64,000 nucleotides of DNA. Origin: Lachnospiraceae bacterium. GTDB lineage: Bacteria > Bacillota > Clostridia > Lachnospirales > Lachnospiraceae. Within the stretch, counting starts at the first letter, position 1; every line of letters begins with the position of its first letter. A model generated the notes under the pieces. That model made no database searches, was not told the DNA's origin, and saw only the letters and a program-made list of their open reading frames with translations. The stretch lies in contig JAAUZI010000008.1 of assembly GCA_014804645.1 (NCBI GenBank), forward strand, positions 62,001 through 126,000, read 5' to 3'. Below are positions 37,531 through 48,754 of the stretch, in pieces. Made by a program: the position numbers and the translations under genes.

Positions 37531-39033
37531 TTATGTCTCCTCGTCCTCCGCCCAGGCCAGGGCACACCTAACTGCCCGTTTCCAGCCCTTTTTCAGCTGC
37601 GCGCGCTGCTGCTCGTCCATCTGGGGGATAAATTCTCTCCCCAGCTGCCAGTTCTCCTTGATCTCTTCCAAATCCCTCCAGTAGCCTGTAGCCAGTCCTG
37701 CCAGATAGGCCGCGCCCAAGGCTGTAGTCTCAATGCAGCGGGGCCGCTGTACCTGGCTGTCGATAATATCCGCCTGGAACTGCATCAAAAAATCGTTGGC
37801 GCTGGCACCACCGTCCACCTTGAGACCCTTTAACGTTCTGCCCAGGTCCTGCTCCATAGCTGTCAGCACGTCCGCCGTCTGATAGGCGATAGACTCTAAT
37901 GTGGCCCGGATGAAATGTTCCTGGCTGCAGCCCCTGGTGATACCCACCACTGTTCCTCTTGCAAACTGGTTCCAGTAGGGCGCACCCATACCTGCAAAGG
38001 CCGGAACCACATAGACGCCCGTGGTGTCCTCCACCTTGTCTGCACTCTCCTGAGTGGCGGAGGCGCTGCGCACCAGGCGCATGCCGTCCCGCAGCCACTG
38101 CACCGCCGCACCAGCCACAAACACGCTGCCCTCCAGAGCGTATTCCACCTGGTCGCTGCAGCCCGCCGCAATGGTGGTCAGCAGTCCTGCCTTGGAGGCA
38201 ATGGCCTCACGCCCTGTATTCATCAACAGAAAGCAGCCCGTCCCATATGTATTTTTCACCTCACCCGGCGCAAAGCAGCCCTGACCAAACAGCGCCGCCT
38301 GCTGATCTCCTGCAGCACCGGCAATGGGAATCTCACCGCCTAACAGTGAGCTTGCGGTATGCCCGAATATGTGGCTTGAGGGGTATACCTGGGGCAGCAT
38401 ACATGCCGGTATGCCCAGCCGCTCCAAAATCTGCTCATCCCAGCAGAGCCTGTGAATGTCGTAAAGCATGGTTCGGGAGGCGTTGGTGTAATCCGTTGCA
38501 TGCACCCGGCCCTTGGTGAGATTCCAGATCAGCCAGGTATCCACGGTGCCGAAAAGAATCTCTCCCCGCTGCGCTCTCTCCCGCACCCCCGGCACATGCT
38601 CCAATATCCAGGCGATCTTAGTGGCGCTGAAATAGGCGTCCGGCACCAGTCCCGTCCGTTCTCTGACAAGACTGTCATATCCCTCCGCCTTCAACTGCTC
38701 AATCATATCCGAAGTGCGGCGGCACTGCCAGACAATAGCGTTGTACACCGGCTCCCCGGTAGCTCTGTCCCAGCAGATCGTGGTCTCCCGCTGATTGGTG
38801 ATACCGATGCCGGCGATCTGCTCCGCACCGGCTCCCACCATGGCCATGGCCTCCGTGGCCACCGCCAGCTGAGAGGACCAAATCTCTCTGGGATTGTGTT
38901 CCACCCAGCCGGGCTTAGGGTAAATCTGCGTGAACTCTTTCTGGGCCATAGAACAGATATTGCCCTCTTTATCAAACAGAATGCAGCGGGAACTGGTGGT
39001 TCCCTGATCCAGTGACATGATATATTGTTTCAT
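37531..39033 (-). CDS. glpK: Glycerol kinase
   Basis: [52 protein letters not shown]. Confidence 0.96.
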
Positions 39034-39155
39034 ATTTTCCTCTTTCTGCATAACTGCAGTTGGCAAAGCCAACTACTGCTGCGCCTGTGTTATTGCGTTA
39101 ATACGTATTTGGATGTTTTACTTCCAAAATTTCCTCTTTCTGCATATCATTGCAA

Positions 39156-39956
39156 TTACAACTTCATATACGCTCCGCCAGGCACTTCCACGATGCGCCT
39201 ATCGTCCACCACAAGCCATGCGCTCTGAGCTGACGGATTATATACGGCAGTGCTGTCCGCGGAGAATTTCAGATTCTGCAGCACCTGCATGTAGTCAATA
39301 ATTTCAATATTGGTGGCGTACCAGATATCCTCCCTGCCTCCCACGATGCGGCAGAACTCCTCTATCCGGTCCCAGTTATTGTTTGAATCAAACTCATAGC
39401 TGTGTCCCCACACATACATGAGTTTCAGATACTGTTTTTTCGGGAAATCCGCAAACCAATGCGCCATCTCCAACAGCCTGGGATGGTTGTGGTGACAGGT
39501 GGGATGCCATTCCATGGGGTCCCGGGGCAGTTCAAAATCCTCTGTAGCCTCCACCACCCGGGCATAGGAAATGCCTAACTTTTGAAACAGATCCTTGATC
39601 TCCTCGTTATATGAGCCGTTGGGATAGGCATGCCCCCGCACCAGTCCGCCGGTGATACGCTCCAGCCCCTCCCGGTCCTCCAGAATCTCTCTGGCCACCT
39701 GAGTGAGCGGACACCGGGCAATGGTGGGGTGGGTCATGGTGTGGGTGGCAATCTCATGACCCTGATACAGCTGAGGAATCTGCTCCGGTTTCAGCCGGAT
39801 ATCCATATTCATCAAACCGTAATTCAGGTTAAATGTCCCCTTGATTCCATATCGGTTAAAAATCTCCAGCAGCCTCACGTCCGCCAGCTTGCCGTCGTCG
39901 TAGCTCATGGTCAGCGCCTTGGCCCTGCCGTCGGGAAATGCCTGATATACTTTCAT
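39156..39956 (-). CDS. Polysaccharide deacetylase family protein
   Basis: ALTMSYDDGKLADVRLLEIFNRYGIKGTFNLN; HEIATHTMTHPTI. Confidence 0.88.
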   Translation of the reverse strand: MKVYQAFPDGRAKALTMSYDDGKLADVRLLEIFNRYGIKGTFNLNYGLMNMDIRLKPEQIPQLYQGHEIATHTMTHPTIARCPLTQVAREILEDREGLERITGGLVRGHAYPNGSYNEEIKDLFQKLGISYARVVEATEDFELPRDPMEWHPTCHHNHPRLLEMAHWFADFPKKQYLKLMYVWGHSYEFDSNNNWDRIEEFCRIVGGREDIWYATNIEIIDYMQVLQNLKFSADSTAVYNPSAQSAWLVVDDRRIVEVPGGAYMKL

Positions 39957-40160
39957 TCTTTGCTCCTTTTTGCGGGTATCCGCATTTCTGTTTCGAGTTC
40001 AGTGTAGCATATCCTCTGTTTGGGTGCAATATTCCTTGAAGTAATTTTGCCGCTTTCCGTTATATAAACAAAAGCGGTACTACGCAATAGTATCGCTCTT
40101 GTGTCCGGCAGAATATATGGGGATTGCACCATCCCTCGGTCTCTCTTGACCGTTCAGAGT

Positions 40161-40895
40161 CTACATTACGCTCTTAATATAAGTCGACGCTATTACCGCC
40201 AGAATTCCGCCAATCGATGAACCGACCAGATTGACGATCAGCTGATAACCCCAGTCAACCTTTTCGCCCTTCTTGTTCGGAATCGGCAGAATTGCGAACC
40301 ATATGCTGCTGAATACGGAACGCATGGCATTCATGCTGAAACCCGTACTGTTAAATGTCAACGCAAGAAAGGCAACCGCAGCAAATCCAACCAGTCCAAC
40401 TACTAAAGACTGATTTCCCGCCTTAAGGCTGCTGACTCCAGCGATACCCATAAACACAAGAAACAGGAAAATAAAGGTTGCGATAATTTCCTGCACGAAA
40501 TTCAAGGGAAGTCTTTTTTCAACAGGATATGCCGAGAAAATTCCGCGTTTGGGCATATCTCCGGAGGCCTTAAAGGAATCCCAGAAGAAAATCATGCAAA
40601 CGAGAACTGCAGCGCCTGCCGCCAGGAACTCCATCAGTAAATAAAGTCCTGCCTCACCTATGCTCAGACCGTTATAAATCACATTTCCCAGAACCACACC
40701 GGGATTCAGATAAGCCGGTCCGCCCATAATAGCCGCCACTGCAAGGCCAAAACCTACCGCAAGACTCCACGCAAATACCAATTCAATATAATTCAGAGTG
40801 GATATCAGGGTCTTCTTAAGCGACACATTGCACATATAGGCATAGCCGCCCGCCAAAAAAATAAAGCTTCCAATAAATTCCGATAAATAAGTCAT
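40161..40895 (-). CDS. Aquaporin/MIP-like channel with altered NPA motifs
   Basis: Six-TM MIP pattern; YLNPGVVLGN in place of NPA box 1 and GFSMNAMRSVF in place of box 2. Confidence 0.65.
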   Translation of the reverse strand: MTYLSEFIGSFIFLAGGYAYMCNVSLKKTLISTLNYIELVFAWSLAVGFGLAVAAIMGGPAYLNPGVVLGNVIYNGLSIGEAGLYLLMEFLAAGAAVLVCMIFFWDSFKASGDMPKRGIFSAYPVEKRLPLNFVQEIIATFIFLFLVFMGIAGVSSLKAGNQSLVVGLVGFAAVAFLALTFNSTGFSMNAMRSVFSSIWFAILPIPNKKGEKVDWGYQLIVNLVGSSIGGILAVIASTYIKSVM

Positions 40896-40998: not shown

Positions 40999-41481
40999 TC
41001 ATTCGATAATCTGTGGCTCGGTGACATCCGCCCCAAACCAAGTCTGCACATCCCGCTCTCCCTCCGCCCCCTCTATCCAGGCGATGCCAAAAACATATCT
41101 CCGGGTTTTCGTAAAAGGCAGTATTACATACTCTACCCCATTATCCAGATACTCGTTTTCATAATCGTACCCCGAGACAGATTTCCTGCCGCCGCATCCC
41201 CTGTCTCCCTCCATGCCTATGGATACCTTGACGGTCCCACTGTAAAATCCCTTGCACTCCAGCCGTTCTCCCGATTCAACGCAGTCACTGTCGTTGGAAA
41301 TATGCCCTTTTATCAGACAGGCAATACTGTGTGAGGCGCCATCCGGCACGAAATCAATATTTATTCTGTACCGGCCGCTCAAATCGGGACAGGTCTCATC
41401 ATACGAAAGCGGATATTCCTCATAAGCAACCGCCCTCCCGTCTATGTATATCTCAATCTCTCCCAGCGGTGTGTTCAGCAT
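40999..41481 (-). CDS. Hypothetical protein
   Basis: 160-aa ORF in the operon-strand direction, no recognised motif. Confidence 0.5.
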   Translation of the reverse strand: MLNTPLGEIEIYIDGRAVAYEEYPLSYDETCPDLSGRYRINIDFVPDGASHSIACLIKGHISNDSDCVESGERLECKGFYSGTVKVSIGMEGDRGCGGRKSVSGYDYENEYLDNGVEYVILPFTKTRRYVFGIAWIEGAEGERDVQTWFGADVTEPQIIE

Positions 41482-41578: not shown

Positions 41579-42652
41579 TCAATCTATCCGCCTCTCCAAA
41601 AGCACATACTCATAGGCAAAATCAATCAGCTGTCCCACATAGCTCTGGCTGTAGTTACCGCTGCGTATCAAAGCGCCCACGGACGGAACCTGCTGGATTT
41701 TCAGCTCGCTGCGTATCGCCTCCGCAAAGGCGCTTCCCAGCCCCTTGTGCTTGGGGTCCACACCCATATACAGCATGACATAACTGTCAGGTTTCTTCCT
41801 TTTGGCAAGAATTGCTGGCAGCTCCCAGAGATGGATTTTGCCGTAGACCGCATTGCCAAAGTCCGGGACGGAGACAAAGAAACCTACCGCCTCTCCCTGG
41901 TAGTATGCCATCTTCACCATACTGTAGTTGAGAATGGATTTCAGATACTTAAACTGTTTGCGGAATTCCGCCTCCGTGATCCTCTTGTAGGCCGGGAAGG
42001 CGCTGTACAGCTCTATCAGCAGACCATAGACCTCACGCATGGTCTTGCTAAACTCCTTGGGACGGGGACTTTTGATCTCATACCCCTGCTCCAGTTTCTG
42101 AGCCAGCCGCTCCATATATTTCTCACAGCCCTCGTCATTCTCCACCACCATATAATGATTGGAGCCGTACTGCTCCCACACTTGAAAACCGTTCTCCTCC
42201 CAAAGGCTCAGATAGTAATCCTTGTTGTAAGGCTCTCCCGTGTAGGGGCTGCGAAACTGATTGGTCTTTAACCTGTACTTAATCCAGAAAGAGCAGTCCA
42301 CCGGGCCGATTATCCCCTTCAGCCCCATATTCCTGGCCATTTCAAAGGCCGTGTGGAACAGCAGTCCTGCGGCGGCGCTGTTGTTCTCGCTCTCAAAATA
42401 CCCCAGATAGGCCACCTCATCCTCCGGGTACACCGTAAGAATTCCCCTGCTCACAGCTTTTCCATCCACATACACCAGTATGGGAGTCGCCGTAAAATAA
42501 TGGCTCAGAACATGGGTGCCCTTCAGGATCGCCCTCTCCTCCTTCTCATTCTGCATCAGCTCCTCTCTGTCATAGAGCCGCCCCGGCAGATCCAGAAAAT
42601 CTTTGATATGCTCCTTGCTGCGTGCCCCGAAAATAACTGCGTTAAGACTCAT
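41579..42652 (-). CDS. GNAT-like N-acyltransferase family protein
   Basis: C-terminal GNAT pattern VMLYMGVDPKHKGLGSAFAEAIRSEL; 1 nt from upstream gene. Confidence 0.65.
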   Translation of the reverse strand: MSLNAVIFGARSKEHIKDFLDLPGRLYDREELMQNEKEERAILKGTHVLSHYFTATPILVYVDGKAVSRGILTVYPEDEVAYLGYFESENNSAAAGLLFHTAFEMARNMGLKGIIGPVDCSFWIKYRLKTNQFRSPYTGEPYNKDYYLSLWEENGFQVWEQYGSNHYMVVENDEGCEKYMERLAQKLEQGYEIKSPRPKEFSKTMREVYGLLIELYSAFPAYKRITEAEFRKQFKYLKSILNYSMVKMAYYQGEAVGFFVSVPDFGNAVYGKIHLWELPAILAKRKKPDSYVMLYMGVDPKHKGLGSAFAEAIRSELKIQQVPSVGALIRSGNYSQSYVGQLIDFAYEYVLLERRID

Positions 42653-42653
42653 T

Positions 42654-45074
42654 TTATATGTCCTCCCTCTGTCCCTGCTCTAATACATGTTTTTCATCCC
42701 GTGCCCGGGACACCACGTTGATCTGCCCCGTGCCGCCGTCGATCTCCACCAGATCGCCGTTTTGAAGCAGCCGGGTAACTCCCTCCACGCCCACCACGGC
42801 GGGCTTTCTGAGCTCCCGTGAGATAATCGCCGTATGGGAGAGCAGAGAACCTTTCTCCGCCACGATCCCGGCCGCCCCAGCCAGCAGAAATACCCAGCCC
42901 GGATCGGTCATTTTAGCCACGAGAATTTTTCCCACAGTGTCGGTCTGCAGACTGGGATTCTCCACCAGCAGCACCTCGCCCCTGGCCTTTCCGCCGGAGC
43001 AGGGAATTCCCTCCAGACGGTCCGCCGACACTGCCGCCTGCATTCCCCCTACATTTCTCGGGGATTTATCAAACACCCTGTCCGCAAAAATCAGCCTTGT
43101 GTATGCAGGCAATTTCTCAAACCGGCGGTACAATTCTCTGCGCTCCTCCACAAGCTCCCGCAGATCTCCGCCGTCTGTCACTGCCCGCTCCACCTCCTCA
43201 TAGGTGAGATAAAATATATCTTCCCGCCTCTCAAGGCGTCCCACCCCAGCCAGATTTTCGCCCACCTTCAACATCATAGTCCGCATCATTCCGTACAGGC
43301 GGCTGCGGTTCAAACGGGATTTCTCGCGGTTTTTGATGCCCAGAGCCGCTTTTTTTGCAAATATGCGGCACAGCCCTTTGAGCCGGGGAACCTCGGCGTC
43401 CACATGATCGGACACAGCGATCCCCTGCTCTGCGTACTGCACTATTTTCTGGGCCAGCAGCTCGGGATTGGTGCGGAAAGTATGGCTCTCCAGTTTCAAT
43501 TCTTCAGCGTTTCTGTCGCCGTAGCGCTGAATATAGTCCTCCATTTTCTCCGCCAAAATCCCGCCGCCGGAGATATATCTGGCATAGTCCTCACGGCTGT
43601 GGATCTCCCGCAGCTGCGGCAGCGCTCCCTGCCCGGCCGCCATATCCGCCATATCCGTCAGAGCGCTCACAGGTTTCATGCTCTCAATGTCGTTAAGACC
43701 CGTGATACAGCGGTTTGCCAATTCCTCCGCATCCGGGACTTTCCCTGCCCTCAGCCGGGACTTCAGCAGACCCGTATACAGAAACGCATACATGTCATTG
43801 ACCAGTGTCAGGTCCCATTTTTCCGTAACGCTTTCTAACATATTTCTGTAGTGCGCCAGAATCTCCGCATTGCCTGCCCGGCTTAAATCCACCGACTCAA
43901 ATGCCTCTATCATATCTATAAATTCCCCGTCCAGCCTCTCCATAAGCCCGGGGCAGGCCAGCAGCAGCCCCACAAAGGAAAGGGCCACTTTGGCGTGGGT
44001 GACAAAGCCGATTTTTCTGTCCGTATGGGAGGTCACGGCCTTATTTTTCATGCCCAGCATCTCCTGCCATATGGGAATGATTCTGCGGGAAAAGGGCAGT
44101 AGCAGTATCACATCATACCAGTTACTGATTCGATAATACACCCGTCCGTTGGCCGTGTCCACCATATTGTGCAGAATATCCTCCAGCTCCGCCACCGTAC
44201 CCGGCTCGCGAGTGAGCCGCAGCACCACCCGGCGAAAGACATGATAATAGGCCTCCCGGATAAAGCTCTGCGTGAGTGGGAGCGTGATTCCGGGATAGCT
44301 TTCCACAATGTTGCTGTTGTCCAATATAATGGGGCGGTCCGCAGGGCCAAGTGTGGTGATGGGACGGGCCTGGAGAATATAGATTACGTTGTCCTTGACG
44401 GCAAATTCAATATCCCATTCTGTGCCGGTATCCTCTCCCCGCCGAAAAATCTCTTTGATTTTCTCCCCCTGATCCAGCAGCTCCATGAGCAATTTCTCGG
44501 AGAGCTGCGGCGAATCTCCGCTTTGTTCGCTGTAATATAGCCCCTCTTGGCGGCTGCAGTAATAAGCCGTGGTGTCGGTTCTATCCTCCACCACATTCTC
44601 TCCCGTTCCTCTGCCCACCACCGCCACCGACTCATTCAATATCCCCTGGGGGTTGGCCGTGAACAGTACGCCGGAAAGCTCCGCGTCCACCATTTTCTGG
44701 GCGATGGCGCAGATTCGGATCTCACCCGGATCTATACGGTATACCCTGCAGTATTCCAAAAATCCGGCGCTCTCTGGCACGGCGCAAACCCGCCGGGCCG
44801 CCTCGGAAAGCTCCTCTGGGGACAAGTGCAGACAGGTGCAGAACTGCCCTGCAAAGGAGGTGGTTCTGCCGTCCTCCGCAGAGGCGCTGGAGCGCAGAGC
44901 CATCTTCTCAGACGGGTCAAAAAAGTCCGTCGCATACTCCGCCGCCTCCCGGGTATCCTCCCCGAAAAAGCAGAAAAACGGCGGGATATTTACGCCGTTT
45001 TTCTGCATCACAAACAGATTCTCCGCTTTTGCTCCCACATTGAAATTCCTGTAGTTTTCCTCTGTGACAATCAT
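42654..45074 (-). CDS. PEP/pyruvate-binding and PEP-utilizing protein (PPDK/rifampin phosphotransferase-like architecture)
   Basis: N-terminal ALRSSASAEDGRTTSFAGQFCT and ELSGVLFTANPQG; C-terminal swivelling domain GSLLSHTAIISRELRKPAVVG; no TIM barrel. Confidence 0.8.
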   Translation of the reverse strand: MIVTEENYRNFNVGAKAENLFVMQKNGVNIPPFFCFFGEDTREAAEYATDFFDPSEKMALRSSASAEDGRTTSFAGQFCTCLHLSPEELSEAARRVCAVPESAGFLEYCRVYRIDPGEIRICAIAQKMVDAELSGVLFTANPQGILNESVAVVGRGTGENVVEDRTDTTAYYCSRQEGLYYSEQSGDSPQLSEKLLMELLDQGEKIKEIFRRGEDTGTEWDIEFAVKDNVIYILQARPITTLGPADRPIILDNSNIVESYPGITLPLTQSFIREAYYHVFRRVVLRLTREPGTVAELEDILHNMVDTANGRVYYRISNWYDVILLLPFSRRIIPIWQEMLGMKNKAVTSHTDRKIGFVTHAKVALSFVGLLLACPGLMERLDGEFIDMIEAFESVDLSRAGNAEILAHYRNMLESVTEKWDLTLVNDMYAFLYTGLLKSRLRAGKVPDAEELANRCITGLNDIESMKPVSALTDMADMAAGQGALPQLREIHSREDYARYISGGGILAEKMEDYIQRYGDRNAEELKLESHTFRTNPELLAQKIVQYAEQGIAVSDHVDAEVPRLKGLCRIFAKKAALGIKNREKSRLNRSRLYGMMRTMMLKVGENLAGVGRLERREDIFYLTYEEVERAVTDGGDLRELVEERRELYRRFEKLPAYTRLIFADRVFDKSPRNVGGMQAAVSADRLEGIPCSGGKARGEVLLVENPSLQTDTVGKILVAKMTDPGWVFLLAGAAGIVAEKGSLLSHTAIISRELRKPAVVGVEGVTRLLQNGDLVEIDGGTGQINVVSRARDEKHVLEQGQREDI

Positions 45075-45078
45075 TGCG

Positions 45079-45978
45079 CTAGACCTTTCCAAACATAATG
45101 TATGCGGCTATGGTAATCAGCATCATGGATTCCTGAATATAGGTGTACCGCTCCACTTTTTCCACGATTTTAAACCTGGTGGGTTCCTCCATGAACTGCA
45201 CAAACTTCCAGGTCATCCATCCGGTGTTAAGCAGCAGCGCCACCACGGAAATCTTGTTCAGATTCCACACCAGCAGCACATTGGTGAGAATATCCACCCA
45301 GGTGAGGATCAGCACAAACATGGTGGACTTTTTGTAACCGAAGAGTTTGGAGTAAGTGACATACTCCGTCTCATCCTTAGGCGCCCGGATTTTTCTGGAA
45401 ACCTCCCATATCAGCGCTGGGAAATACAACGTCCACGCCGCCAGAAAATTGGTCAAAGTAAATGCGCTCAGCCCGTACTTGATACAGGTAAAGGAAATGA
45501 TATACACATTCATGATCATCTGCACCGGATTGTGCGTGACCAGTGCCAGCGGCAGACTCTTCTGTATCTTTTTCTTATGAAAAAACCACAGTGACATCAA
45601 CGTCCCATAGACATACAGGAACAAAAAGAACCAGAAATTGTTCATAAATACAACATTCAGCCCCACCGTCACTGCGATCAGAATAGTCACGAAGATCGCC
45701 AGATCCTTCTTTTTGACCCGGCCCGAGGGCAGCGGTCTATGGGAAAAAAGCCTGCAGTCCAGCTCATAGTCCTTAAAATCGTCCGCAATCCGCAGCCACA
45801 GCAAAAAACTGAACACCGTAAAACCGCCGATGACCTCCTGGACGCCTATCTGGAACTGTGTCACGCCGTTGTTGAGCAGAACAATAAAATAGATTTCCCC
45901 GAAAACAATGAGTCCCAACAGCAGTCTGGGAATGATCGGATACATCTCCTTAAAATAAATGTGCAGCCTCTTTAACAT
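45079..45978 (-). CDS. UbiA family prenyltransferase
   Basis: LWLRIADDFKDYELDCRLFSHRPLPSGRVKKKDL (aspartate-rich motif), multi-TM. Confidence 0.75.
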   Translation of the reverse strand: MLKRLHIYFKEMYPIIPRLLLGLIVFGEIYFIVLLNNGVTQFQIGVQEVIGGFTVFSFLLWLRIADDFKDYELDCRLFSHRPLPSGRVKKKDLAIFVTILIAVTVGLNVVFMNNFWFFLFLYVYGTLMSLWFFHKKKIQKSLPLALVTHNPVQMIMNVYIISFTCIKYGLSAFTLTNFLAAWTLYFPALIWEVSRKIRAPKDETEYVTYSKLFGYKKSTMFVLILTWVDILTNVLLVWNLNKISVVALLLNTGWMTWKFVQFMEEPTRFKIVEKVERYTYIQESMMLITIAAYIMFGKV

Positions 45979-46022
45979 ACTAACTCCCATCTGCCCGCTT
46001 CAGCGGGCACTCAAATCAGGAT

Positions 46023-46065
46023 AAAAATGCTGTATTGGGACTTGCCACGCAAGTCCAGCATTTTT
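46023..46065 (-). terminator. Terminator/attenuator-like hairpin upstream of ubiA-like gene
   Basis: Minus strand ATGCTGGACTTG cgtgg CAAGTCC CAATA CAGCATTTTTATCC. Confidence 0.6.
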
Positions 46066-46068
46066 AGA

Positions 46069-46134
46069 GTGTGAGACTTAGAACTTCTTTGCGAAACAGC
46101 CTTTGCTGTGAGCAAATAGAAGTTCTTCTCACAC
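46069..46134 (-). repeat. Long imperfect hairpin overlapping the psd stop codon
   Basis: GTGTGAGA..AGAACTTCT ... ACAGCctttGCTGT ... AGAAGTTCT TCTCACAC. Confidence 0.75.
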
Positions 46135-46994
46135 TATTTCCCCTGCCCCTTTGCAATCTTTTCTCCGGCGCTCACCAGCACCTCCACGCCCCGGTCCGAG
46201 TGCTCGCGTATATCCCCGTCCACCGAGATCATGTCCGGCATATATAGCTGAATAATAGTGGAACCGCCATAGCTGAAATACCCCTTTTCATCCATTCTGG
46301 CGAACTCGGTCAAATCATGATTGTTGATTTTTCCGACCTGCAGAGCGCCCACCTCTATCTGTACCACATCTCCGAAATGCTCTGTCCGCATCAGCGTATA
46401 TACTCTGTGGTTCCTGGAAAATACCCTGTACCTCTCCGATATGGGACGCACCGTATGCAGAACTCCCGCTATTTCTCCCGTGCTCAGCACGCGCCCGTCA
46501 TCACAGAAATAGTATCTGTGACAATCCTCCAAGGCCAGCCGATATACCAGGCACACCCCGCCCTCGTACTGCGACAGTTCCAATCGGTTGTCAACCAGCT
46601 CCGGCAGCGTGTATATGTTGCCCTTTATCCTGAGGCTAAGCCCCTTATCAATCCTGTACGCCGCCAGCCTGCCACGGCAGGGGGCAATCAGCTCCTGAGC
46701 CCCGGCGCTGCAGTTCCAGCGACATTTCCGGGTAAAAAAATCGTCGAAACTCTTGAATTCTGTTCTCTCACATGCGGAGAGATCAACGCCATACTCCCGG
46801 ATAAAGGGTTCTATTTTCCTGACAGAAAAAGAACTTCTCATCCATATGCTGACTAGTTTCGAGTAAATCCTGCGGCAAAAGAAAACCTTCAGCAGAATTC
46901 TTCCCATGACCGTGTGATAGAGGAATTCCAGACTTTTTCCACCGTACTGCCTCTCCTCCCGATAAGCCTTTGCCGCCCTGTCATATATTCTCAT
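46134..46994 (-). CDS. psd: Phosphatidylserine decarboxylase
   Basis: FDDFFTRK, DCHRYYFCDDG, C-terminal GYFSYGGSTIIQLYMP (pyruvoyl GST site). Confidence 0.92.
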   Translation of the reverse strand: MRIYDRAAKAYREERQYGGKSLEFLYHTVMGRILLKVFFCRRIYSKLVSIWMRSSFSVRKIEPFIREYGVDLSACERTEFKSFDDFFTRKCRWNCSAGAQELIAPCRGRLAAYRIDKGLSLRIKGNIYTLPELVDNRLELSQYEGGVCLVYRLALEDCHRYYFCDDGRVLSTGEIAGVLHTVRPISERYRVFSRNHRVYTLMRTEHFGDVVQIEVGALQVGKINNHDLTEFARMDEKGYFSYGGSTIIQLYMPDMISVDGDIREHSDRGVEVLVSAGEKIAKGQGK

Positions 46995-47014
46995 GTCAGT
47001 CCCCATACATTTTC

Positions 47015-47626
47015 TCACACCAGAATCAGCACAATCACTCCCACCGCCAGCAGACCCAGCACCACATACCATATCCCGCGGGGTTTCGCCACTTTCACAT
47101 TGAGGATAAACAGAACCGCCGTCACAACATAGCCCACTGCCCAGATCACTGACAGGACCGGGCCGCTCACAGATCCGCCCAGATATTTCATAGCCACCCA
47201 CAGAACCGGAATAATCAGCGCGGCGTAGGTCACGGGGAGTCCGTCATAATGGCTCCTCACCTCCTCCGCCGCCGAGGTGTTAAACCAGGCCAGCCGGATG
47301 ATTCCGCAGAGTATATACCCCAGGAGGACAGGATATCGAAACGGGCCTATCCCTTCTGTCAGGTACAGCCCCAGGACTGCGGGCAGGGCCAGAAAGCCCA
47401 TGACGTCCGCCAGAGAATCGATCTGTACGCCAAACTCCCTGGCAAGCTCATCCCGCTTACAGCGCCGGGCAATCACCCCGTCAAACAGATCACAGATTCC
47501 CGCCAATATAAGGCATATCAAGGCTGCGGAAATCTGCCCCGCCAGGGAGAGGGCAATGCCCGAAAACGCGAAACCCACTCCTATGTATGTCAATATCACA
47601 GATTTGTTGTACTTTCCTATAAACAT
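47015..47626 (-). CDS. pssA: CDP-alcohol phosphatidyltransferase / CDP-diacylglycerol-serine O-phosphatidyltransferase
   Basis: CDLFDGVIARRCKRDELAREFGVQIDSLADVMGF: CDP-OH-P transferase motif. Confidence 0.9.
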   Translation of the reverse strand: MFIGKYNKSVILTYIGVGFAFSGIALSLAGQISAALICLILAGICDLFDGVIARRCKRDELAREFGVQIDSLADVMGFLALPAVLGLYLTEGIGPFRYPVLLGYILCGIIRLAWFNTSAAEEVRSHYDGLPVTYAALIIPVLWVAMKYLGGSVSGPVLSVIWAVGYVVTAVLFILNVKVAKPRGIWYVVLGLLAVGVIVLILV

Positions 47627-47676
47627 TGTTCCTCTTCCCGCGTACCATAGGTTTATCCTGTGATACCGCACCGCCA

Positions 47677-48252
47677 TCACAGATTCCTGCGGATTTTCAG
47701 TTTATAAAGCAGCAAGTTAACTGCTATATGGGTAGCCGCCCCCAGCAGGATATACAGAAAATACTGCCAGAGGGGCATGGGATACAGCACAGCAAACACC
47801 ATCCCAACGCCAAACAGAGAATCCACCTGGTCCACCACAAAGAAAACCACACCTTTGACGCCCTCCACCGTCTTGCCGCAGGGAATGTCCAGACGCCGCT
47901 TGACAAAGCTGTTGGGCAGTTCAAACAGCATATATGCCAGTCCCATTGCCCCACCCGCCAGCAGATTGAACAGTGGCGTGTTCTCAAAGGTATGGTAGAT
48001 ATAGCACATATCCGGTATTCCCAGGCATACCCACCCCCACAGCAGCTGCGTCAGCGCTCCCGCCAGAATCATGCCAAAAAACCCCGCCCAGGTCTTGTTG
48101 TCGCCAAACAGGCGTCTGCCGTCCCGGAGGGTCAGGCCGCCGTCTATGGGGTTTTTGAGCCGTGAGTAAACCGGAGTTTTCACAAACACCATATTGAGTA
48201 TTCCCGCGAAAATCACAGGAGTCATTGTCACATACATTTTTAAAAGCGTCAT
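47677..48252 (-). CDS. CDP-archaeol synthase (CarS)-like CTP transferase
   Basis: NPIDGGLTLRDGRRLFGDNKTWAGFFGM; PNSFVKRRLDIPCGKTVEGVKGVVFFVVDQVDSLFG. Overlaps upstream dgk stop by 4 nt. Confidence 0.8.
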   Translation of the reverse strand: MTLLKMYVTMTPVIFAGILNMVFVKTPVYSRLKNPIDGGLTLRDGRRLFGDNKTWAGFFGMILAGALTQLLWGWVCLGIPDMCYIYHTFENTPLFNLLAGGAMGLAYMLFELPNSFVKRRLDIPCGKTVEGVKGVVFFVVDQVDSLFGVGMVFAVLYPMPLWQYFLYILLGAATHIAVNLLLYKLKIRRNL

Positions 48253-48611
48253 AGCATTCTCAGAATGTTGGATACCAGTACAGCGCCCTCTGCCCCGAAG
48301 AAAGCAAAGCCCATGACCAGAACCGCAGCGGCCGACACATCCTTGGCAAACCTGACATCCCTGTTTTCCTCCGTACAAAAGCTGTCGCATAGCCGCTCGA
48401 CCGCCGTGTTGACGTATTCCGCCGAGAACACGCCGCAGCTGAGCGCCAGCAGGAGTATGTAGTCGTAAAGGCCCGACGAGGTCAAAATATTCAACGCCAG
48501 CACTACTAAAGCTATGCCTGTGTAAATCTTAAAATTGCGCTCCTCGCGAAAGCTGCTGGCAATTCCCCGAAACGCGCACGCCACACTCTGCAAAAAATTT
48601 TTGTTTTTCAT
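48249..48611 (-). CDS. Diacylglycerol kinase family protein (DgkA-like)
   Basis: SVACAFRGIASSFREERNFKIYTGIAL; SAEYVNTAVERLCD. Confidence 0.88.
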   Translation of the reverse strand: MKNKNFLQSVACAFRGIASSFREERNFKIYTGIALVVLALNILTSSGLYDYILLLALSCGVFSAEYVNTAVERLCDSFCTEENRDVRFAKDVSAAAVLVMGFAFFGAEGAVLVSNILRML

Positions 48612-48708
48612 TATTGTATACCCCAGTCAGCGCCCAAAAATCCATTGCAGATATTGTAGCATAAAACGGCGTTGTTATCAAGATATTGCGAATATTGCCC
48701 CGGAAAAG

Positions 48709-48744
48709 CAAAAAAGGTATCTGTGCGCATCCACACAGATACCT
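48709..48744 (-). terminator. Intrinsic terminator
   Basis: AGGTATCTGTGTGGATGCGCACAGATACCTTTTTTGC on the minus strand. Confidence 0.85.
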
Positions 48745-48754
48745 CAAATATTTG

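Follow-up and report, generated by a model that had tools for sequence, protein, structure and literature searches.

Seven adjacent minus-strand genes at positions 41579–48611 of the window (the whole 64,000-nucleotide stretch of Lachnospiraceae DNA analysed here) encode, in order, DgkA, CarS, PssA, Psd, a UbiA-like protein, a dikinase-like protein and a GNAT protein. With this gene set a gut bacterium probably produces an unusual membrane lipid alongside its ordinary phospholipids. Direct observations on which this reading builds are gene content, intact motifs, conserved linkage, mutually exclusive kinases and exchange of the head-group arm between lineages. The original prediction, which had read the genes as one compact operon with a modified or prenylated phospholipid as a plausible product, is partly supported. 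If the reading holds, common gut and rumen bacteria, cultured and uncultured, possess a second CDP-lipid pathway for a lipid class that lacks a gene assignment, in which archaeal-like enzymes are central and head-group chemistry is swappable. No published description of the cluster was found in the open-access PMC literature.

Gene layout and transcription signals

Pfam and NCBIfam matches together with start-site inspection confirmed the seven genes, their order and their tight spacing as first described. The inferred carS start at 48252 forms a 4-nt ATGA overlap with dgkA, and the gaps are 4 nt from the UbiA-like gene to the dikinase gene and 1 nt from there to the GNAT gene. A promoter-like site (TTGATA-17-TACAAT with an extended −10 TG; 48653–48681, minus strand), which is a consensus match only, lies ~40 nt upstream of dgkA and follows a terminator-like hairpin (48714–48745, minus strand) at the end of an upstream ABC-transporter operon, so the transcription unit plausibly begins at DgkA. 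The psd–ubiA spacer (45979–46133, minus strand; ~155 nt) holds three strong hairpins, including the long near-perfect palindromes GTGTGAGAAGAACTTCT...AGAAGTTCTAAGTCTCACAC and AAAAATGCTGGACTTGC...CAGCATTTTT, with a minimum free energy of −72.5 kcal/mol for 165 nt folded. With these hairpins between psd and ubiA, a single seven-gene transcript is plausible rather than assured. The short spacer motifs tested for membership of a repeat family give scattered single matches only, within the window.

Directly after the GNAT gene lies a 160-aa open reading frame (40999–41481) without a family match or a counterpart in relatives. A glycerol kinase and a MIP-family channel, possibly a glycerol uptake pair, follow on the same strand (37531–40895), and their adjacency to the cluster is not conserved in relatives. 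The 160-aa frame, the channel, a deacetylase and the glycerol kinase (GlpK) were rejected as members of the unit because they are absent beside relatives' clusters, bar one deacetylase match.

Predicted enzymes of the arm and the core

Catalytic motifs of all four head-group arm proteins are intact on sequence inspection, as are those of the dikinase and motif 1 of the UbiA-like protein; all features below lie on the minus strand. DgkA (48249–48611; 120 aa; Pfam DAGK_prokar 4.2e-23) carries the E..NTA.E motif of DgkA/UdpK kinases within its DAGK_prokar domain and is a lipid kinase with DAG, undecaprenol or another lipid as candidate substrate. CarS (47677–48252; Pfam CarS-like 1.2e-16) conserves GDNKTW, FVKRR and DQVD and matches CDP-archaeol synthase (PDB 5guf) at 3.7e-7, which places it in the CTP transferase family of the archaeal-type ether-lipid pathway. 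The original prediction proposed that this enzyme could supply a CDP-lipid separately from the usual CdsA, and CdsA and a separate PgsA-like enzyme are indeed encoded elsewhere in the genome. Unsaturated isoprenoid lipids are strongly favoured over phosphatidate as substrates of archaeal CarS (PMC9385802), a preference that bacterial CarS-like enzymes need not have. PssA (47015–47626; Pfam CDP-OH_P_transf 9e-14) has an intact DxxDGxxAR...GxxxDxxxD motif, and its best NCBIfam scores, all under cut-off, are to archaetidylserine/phosphatidylserine synthases. Psd (46134–47006; Pfam PS_Dcarbxylase 1.7e-33) has a GGST processing motif; both signatures of bacterial phosphatidylethanolamine (PE) synthesis, the CDP-alcohol motif and the pyruvoyl LGST/GGST motif, are thus present. 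A genome search (estimated contamination of the assembly 6%) found the cluster DgkA, CarS, PssA and Psd to be sole copies. Since PssA and Psd are single-copy, the cluster may also be the only source of ordinary PE in this organism.

The UbiA-like protein (45079–45978) belongs to the UbiA superfamily, as predicted, by its match to NCBIfam PRK13592 (NF010118; 451 bits, above cut-off; the Pfam UbiA match of 1.5e-7 is under the Pfam cut-off), but the usual second Asp motif of that superfamily is missing. Asp motif 1 is intact (DDFKDYELD), and the second (motif 3) is altered to RKIRAPKDE; the altered form, RK[IL][RK]APx[DE]E, is almost invariant among 92 UbiA homologues and has close variants in distant ones. 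The nearest solved structures are chlorophyll synthase and archaeal DGGGP synthase (6m31), at E values of 0.003–0.004. DGGGP synthases have two Asp-rich motifs, D-x3-D and D-x3-D-x2-D (PMC9385802 for the second), of which the UbiA-like protein retains motif 1 only. By sequence it forms a subfamily of its own, and it would be unsafe to presume a particular donor substrate. Given the altered motif, prenyl transfer should not be taken for granted and may be absent.

The next protein (42654–45074; Pfam PPDK_N 2e-30 and PEP-utilizers 9e-23) had been labelled PEP-utilizing. It consists of an ATP-grasp domain, a central helical domain and a His swivel (SHTAII), with the catalytic His invariant in a 20-sequence alignment, and ends after the His domain; the C-terminal PEP/pyruvate-binding domain (PEP-utilizers_C) has no Pfam match in it, which rules out a PEP synthase or other PEP-utilizing enzyme. 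Its structure model (pLDDT 84) has rifampin phosphotransferase (Rph; 5hv1) as best Foldseek match, at E 2e-30 over the whole length, and profile comparison also ranks rifampin phosphotransferase first. With the Rph architecture of ATP-grasp, substrate-binding and His-swivel domains, catalytic His included, and the PEP/pyruvate domain missing, it should be named an Rph-type dikinase. Enzymes of this type convert ATP and a substrate hydroxyl to AMP, Pi and the phosphorylated substrate, a reaction that is putative for the cluster dikinase. In Rph the swivelling phosphohistidine carries the ATP phosphoryl group to small hydrophobic compounds, at one of their hydroxyls (PMC4844700), and HpeHI is a dikinase related to Rph (PMC12167813). 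The cluster enzyme shares the three-domain architecture, the His swivel and full-length Foldseek matches (5hv1/5fbs) with Rph and the small-molecule dikinases HpeHI and PigC/RedH, but differs in its ~20% identity, its diverged central (substrate) domain and its lipid-operon setting, and in that a second such enzyme takes the place of DgkA in some clusters.

The last protein of the unit (41579–42652) has no Pfam match, and a PDB sequence search with its alignment gave no useful match. Its AlphaFold model (pLDDT 91.5) matches the tandem GNATs 2wpw, 7q3a and 5kf1 and mycothiol synthase in Foldseek, and its C-terminal half has a CoA-loop-like motif, HKGLG; model and motif together indicate a tandem GNAT-fold, acyltransferase-like protein with a CoA-binding loop. 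An AMP-dependent acyl ligase of ~485 aa occurs in 32 of the best 80 related loci (of 281), between the dikinase and GNAT genes or just after GNAT; the window does not have that gene. In distant cluster types, GNAT and the acyl ligase match weakly (34% over 61 aa and 25% over ~265 aa, respectively), so that equivalence of their roles is uncertain.

Conservation and exchange of parts

A UbiA profile search of GTDB genomes returned 281 related stretches, of which the best 80 loci were read; these were chosen by UbiA similarity, and many come from metagenome-assembled genomes and are not independent. They belong to Lachnospiraceae, Oscillospiraceae/Ruminococcus, Pseudobacteroides and Butyrivibrio. 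UbiA and the dikinase occur together in all 80, GNAT in 74 (several of the remainder are cut by contig ends), CarS in 66, DgkA in 52, Psd in 41 and PssA in 39. The neighbours are thus conserved rather than freely varying, and chance neighbourhood is ruled out; the original prediction, which free variation of the neighbours would have counted against, withstands that half of its refuting condition. The cluster was found in 21 of 392 genomes in a sample of the order, in five others among 36 same-genus genomes and, in a phylum-wide sample of 399 genomes, in its own genome only; distribution was therefore drawn from the order sample and the UbiA profile search. Presence is patchy, and UbiAs 87–91% identical to that of the window occur in bins of different families, which suggests horizontal spread of the cassette. 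A plasmid- or phage-borne cassette was rejected, since the UbiA has no match in either the plasmid or the phage collection.

The kinase beside CarS is exchanged between two unrelated families. Among 75 CarS loci, 54 have DgkA alone and 20 have a second Rph-type dikinase alone, of ~840 aa and adjoining CarS; none has both, and the one with neither lies at a contig edge. The UbiA tree requires at least three switches between the two. Of five dikinase-type genomes checked, four (G803, G751, G830 and G078) lack DgkA altogether, and the fifth (G076) has one away from the cluster. Genomes of the DgkA type carry the cluster copy, with a second DgkA in one (G071). De novo PE synthesis starts from phosphatidate and CdsA and requires no lipid kinase, whereas here 74 of the 75 CarS loci have a kinase next to CarS, and CdsA lies elsewhere. 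Retention of a kinase of either family beside CarS suggests that CarS is supplied from a non-phosphorylated lipid alcohol. Mutual exclusivity also gives a sharp prediction, that the Rph-fold enzyme is a lipid kinase; we know of no earlier lipid kinase with the Rph-type dikinase fold.

The arm itself can be replaced or absent. At two distant loci, L020 and L155, and more loosely at L156, UbiA and the dikinase accompany BtaA (DUF3419, 7.5e-62) and a kinase-like membrane protein, with GNAT and the acyl ligase in two of the three; none of DgkA, CarS, PssA and Psd lies within these clusters. The membrane protein (440–450 aa; L020:5234–6556, L155:3895–5217, L156:284–1633) has RKxxH and ADxxAAxVG...KSxxGS in its N-terminal half and by eye resembles phytol/dolichol kinases; it has no Pfam or NCBIfam match. 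At L156 (complete genome G476), UbiA and the dikinase are separated by a HAD-like fragment and a condensation-domain protein (PF00668; L156:7780–8988), and the latter is possibly a substitute acyltransferase where GNAT and the acyl ligase are missing. Betaine/homoserine-lipid synthesis likewise uses BtaA, but in the distant cluster form BtaA is linked to UbiA, dikinase and GNAT, and it is absent from the window. The core (UbiA, dikinase, ligase, GNAT) stands alone in ten loci, mostly of mouse-gut Lachnospiraceae; eight such genomes checked have neither CarS nor DgkA, and five of these also have no Psd. Presence of the core alone in some genomes makes arm and core separable. A prenylated product, and PE as the end point, are possibilities only: the mouse-gut clade has no PE arm, and in the distant relatives BtaA takes its place.

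Clusters of the R. flavefaciens type have neither PssA nor Psd, and most of these genomes have Psd elsewhere; Pseudobacteroides has a cluster Psd and a second one elsewhere. In the Psd tree, copies from outside the cluster group together (10 rows, SH-aLRT 92) and are separate from the cluster copies; four rows labelled 'elsewhere' are in fact cluster copies.

A proposed lipid cassette and its alternatives

BtaA, too, takes a lipid whose hydroxyl is free. The two arms would thus share a type of starting compound, most simply read as a lipid alcohol that the core makes or finishes. In the pathway proposed here, for which we infer all enzyme functions and substrates from sequence, structure models and neighbourhood, the UbiA-superfamily transferase, Rph-type dikinase, tandem GNAT and often the acyl-AMP ligase would build or finish this alcohol. 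In the window version, DgkA would phosphorylate it, CarS would form the CDP-lipid, PssA would add serine and Psd would decarboxylate the product to a phosphoethanolamine lipid. In other lineages the Rph-type dikinase would serve as kinase instead of DgkA, or a BtaA-type 3-amino-3-carboxypropyl transferase would attach homoserine as head group straight to the hydroxyl of the lipid. A modular, horizontally spread cassette of this kind beside the CdsA pathway, with a core that builds the alcohol and lineage-specific arms that add the head group, seems to us about evenly poised between right and wrong. In its favour are the conserved linkage, the exchange of kinases beside CarS, the separate CdsA, the BtaA-bearing clusters, the second Psd of Pseudobacteroides with the split of the Psd tree, and the genomes with the core alone. 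That plain PE is a sufficient arm product in this organism, where PssA and Psd are sole copies, counts against it, as do the altered UbiA motif and the weak matches of GNAT and acyl ligase in the distant type. The archaeal CarS preference (PMC9385802) and the DGGGP synthase-like UbiA make an isoprenoid chain possible by analogy. The fuller statement, that gut and rumen Clostridia share a mobile cassette for an undescribed glycerolipid-like membrane lipid whose chain may be isoprenoid, that the head-group arms are exchangeable and that an Rph-type dikinase has repeatedly replaced DgkA, is more tentative and in our judgement leans towards being wrong in some part.

Three alternatives assign the genes differently. 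The arm could make an ordinary amine lipid (PE or diacylglyceryl-homoserine) that the ligase and GNAT N-acylate and to which UbiA and the dikinase add a further group. GNATs typically acylate amines, the end product of either arm bears a primary amine and the acyl ligase adjoins GNAT in the 32 loci noted above, but tailoring gives no account of a constant lipid kinase and CarS when CdsA already makes CDP-DAG, and the core also occurs in genomes without Psd and CarS; we consider it unlikely. Quite unlikely, too, is that DgkA, CarS, PssA and Psd supply ordinary PE while UbiA, dikinase and GNAT form an unrelated pathway on a shared transcript. Against it, the two halves stay linked across UbiAs of 56–90% identity and several bacterial families, DgkA–CarS stays beside UbiA even where PssA and Psd lie elsewhere, and kinase and CarS are superfluous for ordinary PE; in its favour stand the normal catalytic motifs, the single copies of PssA and Psd, the solitary UbiA–dikinase–ACS–GNAT sets of some genomes and the hairpin-rich spacer that divides the halves here.

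Salvage of isoprenoid alcohols, in which the kinases and dikinase phosphorylate a prenol (e.g., dietary phytol) to a prenyl phosphate with which UbiA prenylates an acceptor to give a prenylated small molecule, would fit the many herbivore-gut hosts, the structures nearest to UbiA, the single FPP-synthase-like polyprenyl synthase of this genome (beside xse genes) and the phytol/dolichol-kinase-looking protein of BtaA-type clusters. That last likeness is by eye with no Pfam match, the second Asp motif of UbiA is altered, and CarS, PssA, Psd and BtaA are left unexplained, which makes salvage improbable.

Among the closest known systems are two phospholipid pathways. Bacterial PE synthesis (CdsA–PssA–Psd) shares PssA and Psd with intact motifs, but the cluster has CarS and a lipid kinase in place of CdsA and links them to UbiA, dikinase and GNAT. 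Archaeal phospholipid synthesis, which uses GGGPS, DGGGPS (a UbiA), CarS, archaetidylserine synthase and Asd, shares the CarS family, a UbiA nearest to DGGGP synthase and chlorophyll synthase, a serine-then-ethanolamine head group and a PssA for which models of archaetidylserine synthase give slightly higher scores; the cluster differs in its loss of UbiA motif 3 and in its additional lipid kinase, Rph-type dikinase, GNAT and, in relatives, acyl ligase. A full archaeal ether-lipid pathway is ruled out because GGGP synthase (PcrB/GGGPS), which forms the first ether bond, is missing from the genome, which has zero PF01884 matches. The opposite pattern to that of this genome is known from FCB-group bacteria for which archaeal lipids have been proposed: GGGPS and DGGGPS are present and CarS is lacking (PMC7852524). 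Cultured carriers of the cluster include Pseudobacteroides cellulosolvens ATCC 35603, Ruminococcus flavefaciens YRD2003, Butyrivibrio sp. INlla14 and Anaerotruncus sp. MC2020, which opens the way to a direct search for the product in isolates.
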